A stretch of DNA of 50,872 nt, from the NCBI GenBank assembly GCA_022824265.1, contig JAJEAG010000032.1, forward strand, positions 1 through 50,872, written 5' to 3'. Source of the DNA: Candidatus Poribacteria bacterium. GTDB taxonomy: Bacteria; Poribacteria; WGA-4E; WGA-3G. Under the pieces are notes generated by a model. It did no database searches, was not told where the DNA came from, and saw only the letters and a program-made list of their open reading frames with translations. Shown here one piece after another: positions 38,128 to 47,849 of the stretch; the first letter of the stretch is position 1; the number at the start of each line of letters is the position of its first letter. A program made the position numbers and the translations under genes.

Positions 38128-41100
38128 CTATTTGTCAGGACGATTGAATCGAAGCACTCCGTTTTGTCTTGTACCGATATAGAATGTATCATCGTCAATA
38201 GCAAAGGAGTCTGCCGTATGTGGTAATTTTGGAACAATCTGTTTCCATGTGTTAGTTTGGTTATCTACTTGATAGATACCACTATTATTCACGCCGTAAG
38301 CAGTTGCGTCATCAACAGCCATCCAGTCTATGATCAGTATTTCATCATCATCACCGTTGATGGCATGCCAAGTTTCTCCATCACTTGAACTCATAACCCC
38401 CATATTCGTCGAGACGTAAACAGTTGAATCTGCGAACATAATCTCTTTGAATAATCCCGGAAATACAAGGTTTTCGGTTACATCAGTCCAAGTGTCTCCA
38501 CTATCTACAGATAAGAAGAGATCTCCGCCCCGTTTACCGGCATAAACTGTTTTACCAGATACAGCAAGTGTGAAACCCTTTCTTGCACTGATTGGTGAGT
38601 TTTCATCCTGGTCTTCCAAACCTGTGTCGTACCATGCTGTTTCACCAAAACGCCATCTGAAAAGTTTATGTCTGTATTCCATGAAAACGGTATCATCAGC
38701 AATCGTAAATGTTCCATTCGTCCTCAATTCCTCAGAAATACGTTCTTGTGCTGCATTCCACTGGTTCATCATTTTACCAATCTCGTCATTCCTCTGCTTC
38801 ATCCCTTTGTCTGCATCAACCTTGTTCTTGAATACACCTATACGGTCTAACGCCTGCCTATGTTTTTTCTCCCATTCCGTGTGTAGAGTGGCTGTATCAA
38901 ATTCTGGGACACCTTCAACAGGTAGGAACACTTTGTCATCATCAGAGAGACGAGAAAACTTGATACCATCAAGATCACTATTGCTTGCATATAGCATACC
39001 ATCTGTTGACGCAACTTTCGTCTGGATTCCTATAAAATTAACATGGTCCTTAACCTTAATTAAACCTACGGATTCCCATGTTTCTCCACCGTCTACAGAT
39101 TTGAGCATTTCTTCACGGGTTAGCGCGTAGAGAACGTTATTTACCACAATCAGATTAGGAACGTGGGAATTCACTATTCCATTCATAAATGGATGCCATG
39201 TGACACCTGAATCTGATGAACGTTTTATTCCACCGCGACCAAGACCGTATAAAGTGTTTTCGTCTAACGCTATGGCAGGAAAAATGCTGAACCTTCTTTG
39301 TTCCCATTCTGGAAAAATCCATGTTTTACCACCGTCTTTTGAGTGTAAACCGTAACCAGACAATATCAGTGTATCTCCGACTGTAACCACCTCAGAAGTT
39401 AATCCTAATGAATGATTACGTTTTTTCGGTGTAATATCTCTCCAGGAATCACCGAGGTCTGACGAAGAGAATACCGATGCGTGAGGAAGTATTACCTTCT
39501 GTTGTCTTGGACTAACGGTTGTTCCAACATAAATCTTATCTTGACCAACTGCTAATGATTTGATACCGTGTGATGTTGGCACAGGTAATTTTTCCCAGAC
39601 ATCGGTAAATCGGAAAAGTCCCATACTTGTTCCAATAAACAGGTTGTTGTCAAGAGCAAGTGCATCCCAGATTCGGAAAGCAAGTTGGTTATGGGCAAGT
39701 ACATCCAAAGGACCGACAATGGGCTGAGAATTGGGATTGTCTACAGCATCGCGATTCGGACGGATCTTGGGATTGACCATCCCTGGGACATCACCCTGTA
39801 TATCACGCAAGGTATCTCCTATAAATTCCCACACATTACCACCATCCTCAAAACGAAGTCGAAAGACATCTGTTTTAAGGACGAGGTACATTGCCGTATC
39901 TGTCGTAACTAATGCAACTGCACCTCCTAACGGACGTACACCGAGACTATCCCATGTCATACCGTTATCATTTGAGGCTATAAGTTCATTTGTAGTGAGA
40001 AGATATAACGTGTCATCGTGTTTAGCCATGGTCCCCTCAAATTCCTGATAGGGAGGGCTGATACCAACATGCATCCAACCATCTGCTTTTTCTGTGAGTT
40101 TGTATAATCCTGTTTTCGTAATTGCGTATAGTGATTGGTCAGACGCAAGATAGAGTTTGGCACTTATAACACCACCCGGTCCCTTTGTTTGAATCCATTG
40201 TGATTTGGCTGCAGGAAGGTCAGTCTCGTCTGCTTGTGCCGCTGCAATGAGAAATGATTCACCTTGAAATCCAATTTCACTGTTTTTTCCATTTGTATTG
40301 ACTATTCCAATTTTGGTCAGAGGATCGGATTTATGCTCAAACTCTCGGACAACTGGTGCATCTACAAGTTCTATTGTCATTTCTGAAGTTGAATGTAAAT
40401 TATATGGCTGCTGGAAACGCGATAATGCACGAGGTCCCATCCCCAACAACATGATAACCAAAATAACTGATGAGAATGAGAGACCCCACGGTATCCAAGG
40501 TTTGTGAACGGAAGGAGATGTGGGTTTAATACGGGCGATTTCATCCATGATGTTTTCTGTTATGGTAGGTTTCAACTGGAAGATGTCTGACACATCGTTA
40601 AGTAGGTGTTCATGTTTCTCTAATCGTTTACGTGCACGATATAGTCGACTCTTAATCGTATTCCCCGATACTCCCAAGAATTCACTTATCTTTTCACATG
40701 GCATTTCAGCTAAGTAGTGCAGTATTACGACAGTCCGCTCACTCTCAGGCAATTTCTGGAGTAACTGTTTAACAATTCCACGCTGGTTTTCAACAGTGTT
40801 TGCTTCAGTTCGTTCCGCTTCATATTGTAGATAGCAGTATTCCTCTATTTCAACCGTGGACATATCGCACAGTGAGGTAATCGGTTGTTTGTTCTTTCGG
40901 ATCCATGCAATGCAGTGTCTCGTCGCGACGACGTATAACCATCCCGGAAAATGATATGGAGGTTTCAGACTCATTAACTTCTTATATACTTTCAGGAATA
41001 TATCTTGTGTGATTTCCTCTGCAATATGGAAATCACCAATTTTCCGCCAGACCAAAGCATGAACCTGTTTTTGGTATCTTTTTACCAACACAGAAAACGC

Positions 41101-41154
41101 ATTTTGGTCCCCTTCTAAAGTGTCTTGTATTAGGCTAATGTCACTTCTCTCCAT
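38128..41154 (-). CDS. ECF sigma factor fused to a membrane-tethered beta-propeller sensor
   Basis: A 1008-residue chimera. Residues about 8-90 are a sigma region 2 (FSVLVKRYQKQVHALV, EEITQDIFLKVYKKL, FPGWLYVVATRHCIAWIRK). About 125-180 are region 4 with the helix-turn-helix LAEMPCEKISEFLGVSGNTIKSRLYRARKRL. A linker leads to one transmembrane segment at about 219-241 (WIPWGLSFSSVILVIMLLG). The remaining ~750 residues form an external propeller-like domain with seven Asp-box motifs (SxDxGxTW) near residues 396, 569, 607, 650, 688, 884 and 924. A coiled-coil-like insert covers about 755-808. No separate anti-sigma gene is adjacent. The likely logic is direct transmembrane sensing, with the sigma domain released or repositioned on signal. 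Fusions of ECF sigma factors to membrane and repeat domains are known in planctomycetes; this combination appears unusual. Confidence 0.9.
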   Translation of the reverse strand: MERSDISLIQDTLEGDQNAFSVLVKRYQKQVHALVWRKIGDFHIAEEITQDIFLKVYKKLMSLKPPYHFPGWLYVVATRHCIAWIRKNKQPITSLCDMSTVEIEEYCYLQYEAERTEANTVENQRGIVKQLLQKLPESERTVVILHYLAEMPCEKISEFLGVSGNTIKSRLYRARKRLEKHEHLLNDVSDIFQLKPTITENIMDEIARIKPTSPSVHKPWIPWGLSFSSVILVIMLLGMGPRALSRFQQPYNLHSTSEMTIELVDAPVVREFEHKSDPLTKIGIVNTNGKNSEIGFQGESFLIAAAQADETDLPAAKSQWIQTKGPGGVISAKLYLASDQSLYAITKTGLYKLTEKADGWMHVGISPPYQEFEGTMAKHDDTLYLLTTNELIASNDNGMTWDSLGVRPLGGAVALVTTDTAMYLVLKTDVFRLRFEDGGNVWEFIGDTLRDIQGDVPGMVNPKIRPNRDAVDNPNSQPIVGPLDVLAHNQLAFRIWDALALDNNLFIGTSMGLFRFTDVWEKLPVPTSHGIKSLAVGQDKIYVGTTVSPRQQKVILPHASVFSSSDLGDSWRDITPKKRNHSLGLTSEVVTVGDTLILSGYGLHSKDGGKTWIFPEWEQRRFSIFPAIALDENTLYGLGRGGIKRSSDSGVTWHPFMNGIVNSHVPNLIVVNNVLYALTREEMLKSVDGGETWESVGLIKVKDHVNFIGIQTKVASTDGMLYASNSDLDGIKFSRLSDDDKVFLPVEGVPEFDTATLHTEWEKKHRQALDRIGVFKNKVDADKGMKQRNDEIGKMMNQWNAAQERISEELRTNGTFTIADDTVFMEYRHKLFRWRFGETAWYDTGLEDQDENSPISARKGFTLAVSGKTVYAGKRGGDLFLSVDSGDTWTDVTENLVFPGLFKEIMFADSTVYVSTNMGVMSSSDGETWHAINGDDDEILIIDWMAVDDATAYGVNNSGIYQVDNQTNTWKQIVPKLPHTADSFAIDDDTFYIGTRQNGVLRFNRPDK

Positions 41155-41378
41155 GACTCTCCTCCCAATATAGTGCTTTTACAAGTTAATAACGCGTTTG
41201 TGAGACTTAAAGGTTGCATAAAATACATTATCAAGTCCGACAAGTATTATTTTTATTATTACATAAAGGAATAAGACAAGACTTCTGTCAATTTGGTAGA
41301 ATAAACGAACGTAATGTGTTTATGTGAGGAAATGCGATTTATATGATAGAATCAGATGCAATAAATATATTGATTGAT

Positions 41379-47536: not shown

Positions 47537-47849
47537 AGAAGGAGCAAATAACCGATGTATTTATAAGAGAAGCACAAACAATTCGCCGTCAAATCTTATG
47601 CACAATTCATGACACGCAAACAAGTCGCAACCTATGTTAACCTCACAATAACCATATTAAAATAATCATCAAAACAACAAACCAGCCATGAACTATAACG
47701 GAGATTTATAACACGAAGTATATTTATTTGCATTCTATATAAGAATAAGTCATAATTATTATCAATATTTTATTGAATGAACGATGAATTTCAGTGATTC
47801 ATTTGTAAAATATTTAAAATATACAAGGAAAATCCTAAGGAGCAATTTA

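Follow-up and report, generated by a model that had tools for sequence, protein, structure and literature searches.

A classical ECF signalling system requires two proteins or more, and versions in which a single chain does the work are known in small groups only. One of these is IutY (ECF243) of Pseudomonas putida, a single chain that consists of an ECF sigma domain in the cytosol, one membrane helix and a domain in the periplasm and is activated by cleavage: Prc first shortens the periplasmic portion until about 50 residues are left, whereupon RseP frees the sigma factor (PMC5411451). In ECF52 (SCO4117) and ECF53 of the Actinobacteria, the chain runs from a sigma factor through a transmembrane segment to an extracytoplasmic ligand-binding part, and there is evidence of autoregulation (PMC5826349, PMC8999054). 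ECF57 and other WD40-fused ECF factors of planctomycetes have a propeller-type C-terminal extension and are multiplied in the genome (PMC8999054, PMC8567305). Outside the sigma factors, the Bacteroides hybrid two-component sensors BT4673 and BT4663 join a double-propeller periplasmic sensor across the membrane to a transcription output within one chain.

Here we describe a gene at positions 38128 to 41154, minus strand, of the window, by which we mean the whole 50,872-nucleotide stretch that was analysed (contig JAJEAG010000032.1 of the Candidatus Poribacteria assembly GCA_022824265.1). It encodes a 1008-residue protein composed of an ECF sigma factor, a transmembrane helix, a stalk and a double beta-propeller. 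The arrangement of sigma domain, single helix and outer domain in one chain is that of IutY. However, IutY has on its periplasmic side an anti-sigma domain that is coupled to a TonB receptor, while the window protein has a modelled double propeller on the outside, belongs to a large family and has no FecR-type match (neither a FecR nor an STN domain was found by Pfam at E 0.1). Like ECF52 and ECF53, it joins a membrane helix and a putative extracytoplasmic binding domain in one chain. Those two groups carry a zinc-finger anti-sigma domain between sigma factor and helix, which the window family lacks (the linker, residues 183-218, has no cysteine and no Pfam zf-HC2 match), and they carry a proline-rich region and a carbohydrate-binding module where the window family has many swapped sensors; ECF52 is, moreover, confined to Actinobacteria.

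With ECF57 the window protein shares a propeller-type C-terminal extension on a sigma factor that is multiplied in the genome, but for ECF57 the descriptions give protein interaction as the mode of action and two conserved cysteines that link regions 2 and 4, whereas the window family has a membrane tether. In the sigma domain of the family, C81 is present in 149 of 155 members and C153 in 53 of 155. The extension of the window protein is also of Asp-box rather than WD40 type, WD40 repeats being found in its paralogs. Its output is a sigma factor, while that of BT4673 and BT4663 is a histidine kinase and response regulator. Of the known kinds, ECF52/53, IutY and ECF57 stand nearest (PMC8999054, PMC5826349); the family would work like ECF52 or IutY yet fits the definition of neither.

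Architecture of the window protein

The reading frame opens with ATG and runs for 1008 codons with no internal stop, and a ribosome-binding site, GGGAGGAG, lies upstream of the ATG at 41159 to 41166 (all features of the gene are on the minus strand). The N-terminal part matches the NCBIfam sigma70-ECF superfamily model (1e-27). Pfam places sigma region 2 at residues 23-89 (PF04542, Sigma70_r2, 3e-12; 40888 to 41088) and sigma region 4 at residues 127-178 (PF08281, Sigma70_r4_2, 3e-14; 40621 to 40776), so that both regions named by the first-pass annotation are borne out. Membership in the ECF sigma-70 factors (group 4) is indicated by the presence of regions 2 and 4 only and by the ECF models matched. 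The sigma regions are canonical, with SigW as the closest solved relative, and the helix-turn-helix of region 4 is conserved across the 155 family members, G161, S163, R170 and R173 being nearly invariant.

A cytoplasmic linker follows at residues 183-218 (40501 to 40608), for which the A3 alignment gives the consensus FQLSPNLTENIMxEIxxxKPxxPSxxKP. Hydropathy finds a single hydrophobic helix, as had been proposed, at residues 221-239 (40438 to 40494), with about 770 residues beyond it. The tether obeys the positive-inside rule, with a mean of 2.65 K+R on the sigma side against 0.95 outside, which places the sigma side inside. Beyond the helix lie an outer stalk at residues 240-319 (40198 to 40437), in which FQQPYSLDAQSExTVEIVDAPIV is conserved in the alignment, and an outside domain of about 690 residues (320-1008; 38131 to 40197) with Asp-box repeats, modelled as two tandem beta-propellers. 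Of the seven Asp-boxes counted earlier, six are recovered by a strict regular expression (at residues 394, 564, 605, 646, 686 and 882), and the seventh, near residue 922, can be read from the sequence in relaxed form only.

Downstream the gene is followed by one of the enolase superfamily, and upstream it is preceded by one for a PSCyt1 lipoprotein; as first noted, no anti-sigma gene is found by Pfam among these immediate neighbours. Sigma factor and outside domain stand physically continuous in one chain, as is clear from the intact reading frame and from the orthologs described below. Signalling by one polypeptide is the natural reading, and it is well supported by the topology, the absence of an anti-sigma domain and the ECF-type promoter.

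Orthologs and selection

Orthologs in other assemblies read through the junction of sigma factor, helix and propeller at 96% identity (JAJDWI010000114), 74% identity (JAPOQK010000035) and 66% identity (in genome G021). Because the entire architecture is kept at these three levels of identity, we consider the fusion genuine; the frameshift or assembly join that might have been feared at the junction is not seen, and an artefact of either kind is ruled out by these orthologs together with the one-contig genomes. Both named contigs, which belong to Candidatus Poribacteria, also keep the enolase-superfamily neighbour downstream. Compared with the 96% ortholog, dN/dS is 0.13 for the sigma part, 0.30 for the propeller part and 0.23 overall, indicating that both ends of the protein are under purifying selection.

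In the same comparison dS itself differs threefold between the two parts, at 0.21 in the sigma part (window positions 40607-41154) and 0.06 in the propeller part. The higher value in the sigma part hints at gene conversion from a paralog.

A family defined by its tether

We built a profile, A3, from the linker, helix and outer stalk alone and searched it in 85 genomes of the phylum. It gave 1,599 matches, with 69 of the 85 genomes positive, and 1,581 of the matches fell within the window organism's own family. Genomes of that family mostly hold 13-58 copies, a few holding 1-11, and the window's own genome holds 23; sister families of the order have 0-3 copies per genome. None was found in other classes (nine genomes searched), and two genomes outside the class gave one weak match.

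The fusion is kept throughout: 98 of 102 tether-bearing ORFs carry the sigma part, the remaining four being cut by the end of the locus, so that the tether never occurs without sigma in the untruncated ORFs checked and the two parts are far from being always separate genes. In the one-contig genome G082, all 56 tether matches are ORFs that also carry sigma, and a stretch of 48 kb holds about 15 of them. The window's own genome has about 25 paralogs, several of them in tandem on two contigs. Alignment of the paralogs reveals a common unit of sigma factor, linker, membrane helix and outer stalk, after which the outside domains differ.

The planctomycete context suggested by the first-pass annotation did not hold; the tether family is instead specific to the Poribacteria lineage. 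A planctomycete origin of the window gene was rejected, its nearest named records being Candidatus Poribacteria, and so was viral spread of the family, none of the 28 pattern matches in a scan of viral contigs being a relative. Literature searches pairing Poribacteria with sigma factor or Asp-box returned nothing on point. The large tether family is apparently undescribed, although it may already have an ECF group number. It has the look of a Poribacteria receptor repertoire not recognised before, with one bacterial family apparently using numerous single-chain sigma receptors as a main sensory system, most of them linked by one shared promoter.

The shared promoter

A site in two parts, TTATGCAAC-N17/18-CGTCA, followed by TATA-like bases, stands before most members, as a rule at a distance of 25-65 bases from the start codon. 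Using a weight matrix trained on the same upstream set that it scored, we found a score of at least 10 in 71 of 84 dereplicated upstream regions, compared with 0.24% of dinucleotide shuffles. G082 provides a more independent check, since only one of its upstream regions was in the training set; here 42 of 57 regions score at least 10. Among the four stand-alone ECF genes in the upstream set, three lack a site, and the fourth has a weak one far off (score 11.7, at 128 bases). Searched across the genome, a strict form of the site gives 13 hits and its reversed control 2; 8 of the 13 stand at family genes, and others precede genes for WD40 proteins without sigma and for a small protein that is membrane-anchored or secreted.

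Before the window gene, an ECF-type promoter, which the first-pass annotation had suggested looking for, is present as TGCAAC-N18-CGTT at 41191 to 41218, 36 bases before the ATG, with the AAC motif at -35 and CGTC-like -10 that mark promoters of this type. It scores 30.3, and the next best site in the window scores 9.8. The suggested link to the TonB receptor gene at 47784 failed, as the weight-matrix scan of the window found no family-promoter site before that gene. A promoter shared in this way is what autoregulation combined with cross-regulation would look like, if the sigma factor that uses it is the family's own, as the habit of ECF factors suggests.

Two other genes with the family promoter before them are, at G000:C81:27472, one for a small protein, membrane-anchored or secreted, with a stand-alone ECF gene after it and, at C75:30010 of the same genome, one for a WD40 protein without sigma. 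As found by pattern search, both are candidate regulon members.

Outside domains

Across the family, the outside domains include Asp-box, WD40, Kelch, Reg_prop, LRR, lectin and other types, for the most part propellers and further folds suited to binding. Reg_prop is a known two-component sensor propeller. Most outside parts in the window's genome are Asp-box or WD40 propellers, with single cases of C-type lectin, M16-like and carboxypeptidase-regulatory-like domains. By motif count, 24 members in G082 are of Asp-box and 15 of WD40 type; among the others are Reg_prop, Kelch, LRR and PD40 repeats as well as domains that could be assigned to no type. The sigma-domain tree shows 22 changes of sensor type, and its well-supported branches force at least 6-8 of them per type, which indicates that sensors have been exchanged repeatedly. 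Since Asp-box is also the type of the five sister-family members that offer sufficient sequence, the architecture of the window protein is probably the founding one of the family.

Structure models were built from a three-row alignment. The full-length AlphaFold model reached a pLDDT of only 37 and was not used; the outside domain by itself was modelled with moderate confidence as two tandem propellers (pLDDT 65, pTM 0.45). Foldseek gave GH74 xyloglucanases and the Bacteroides sensors BT4673 and BT4663 as the best structural neighbours of this model, and the sequence profile of the domain matches GH74, Ycf48 and sortilin. Comparison with the GH74 fold, which consists of two tandem seven-bladed propellers, gave a VIA-align Z of 21 over 530 residues, at an rmsd of 10 and for a model of pLDDT 65, and the alignment with GH74 enzymes, at about 13-16% identity, is too weak for placing the catalytic aspartates. 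The outside domain is a probable sensor, with a predicted propeller shape.

Many Asp-box sensor ends of the family's sigma factors resemble GH74 and may make up part of the reported count. Among the many genes described from Poribacteria as 'GH74' or 'WD40', some may encode the sensor ends of sigma factors.

Proposed mechanism and alternatives

We read the window gene as encoding a one-polypeptide receptor with an ECF sigma output, which would be held by its tether, released when triggered by ligand, and engaged in auto- and cross-activation; we put the probability of this reading at roughly 0.7. Sequence and models together supply the sigma factor, helix, tether and double propeller in one conserved ORF, its paralogs and the promoter. 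The chain would sit in the inner membrane with sigma inside and propeller outside, tethering would keep sigma inactive, and binding of a ligand or partner to the propellers would lead to release of the sigma domain. Release would most likely take place by trimming of the outer stalk followed by site-2 cleavage in or near the helix, and the conserved outer stalk, of about 60 residues, could correspond to the trimmed remnant of IutY. The free sigma factor would then act at the shared promoter to transcribe its own gene along with other members of the family, resulting in positive feedback and cross-activation. Release by regulated proteolysis is a step that we infer from the example of IutY. Proteases of the families that cleave IutY (Prc and RseP type) exist in the window's genome, which encodes a site-2 protease and Prc-type S41 proteases, but their presence says little because both are general housekeeping proteins.

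Instead of being cut free, the sigma factor might work while bound to the membrane, with the ligand altering its conformation or clustering and no proteolysis involved. No protease site can be named, and the linker, which is 36 residues long and closes with a conserved proline-rich KPxxPW, could allow sigma to reach DNA. However, sigma factors seldom form holoenzyme at the membrane. IutY, the one-chain relative that has been characterised, also needs cleavage for activity (PMC5411451), and we regard activity at the membrane as unlikely, though the most credible of the alternatives. The tether family offers a test case for whether a sigma factor on a tether needs to be cut before it can act.

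Control of the tethered sigma factors by a separate anti-sigma protein acting in trans would draw on the canonical pairs that the genome does possess. Yet all four of its zf-HC2 anti-sigma genes (at C74, C37, C17 and C14) stand beside their own small ECF gene and none beside the window gene; the usual two-protein arrangement is therefore present here, but not for the tethered family, which makes such control improbable. Slighter still is the chance that the sigma part is a relic serving as an N-terminal anchor and that the outside domain does the work, for example as a surface carbohydrate-binding or GH74-like enzyme. That domain is long, conserved and related in fold to GH74 xyloglucanases, but the sigma half is the more constrained of the two (dN/dS 0.13 against 0.30), its recognition helix is kept in 155 members, and an ECF-type promoter stands before the family genes.

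Cytoplasmic fusions and a second sigma subfamily

At L076:5321-7078 (plus strand; G000:C76), a family sigma factor is fused to a full DnaN clamp in a protein of 585 residues with no membrane helix. The match to TIGR00663 (DNA polymerase III beta clamp) is above cut-off, the family promoter lies upstream, orthologs occur at 97% and 64% identity, and separate DnaN genes are also present in the genome. At L077:1600-5643 (minus strand; G000:C38), a single ORF of 1347 residues joins a member of a second sigma subfamily first to FtsZ and then to a truncated DNA polymerase III alpha; at 65-92% identity it is present from end to end in six other genomes. Its relatives include fusions of sigma to FtsZ alone or to DnaE, and the genome has separate FtsZ and DnaE genes as well.

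Poribacteria may, as a tentative picture that we hold to be somewhat less than an even bet, use one ECF sigma module as a general receptor output, with swappable outside sensors on dozens of paralogs per genome, a few cytoplasmic DnaN members under the same promoter and second-subfamily copies with FtsZ or DnaE under their own. Together these would form a combinatorial surveillance network, directed both outwards and inwards, with a common regulon.

The upstream motif of the second subfamily, as judged by eye, is roughly TTTTTTAAACC followed by CCTCTTTAT and differs from the family promoter; it was seen upstream at L070:4184 and 14040, at L077 and at L082-L087. A further fusion without a membrane helix, at L076:8579-11389 (plus strand), joins a sigma factor to an S9 prolyl oligopeptidase in a protein of 936 residues.
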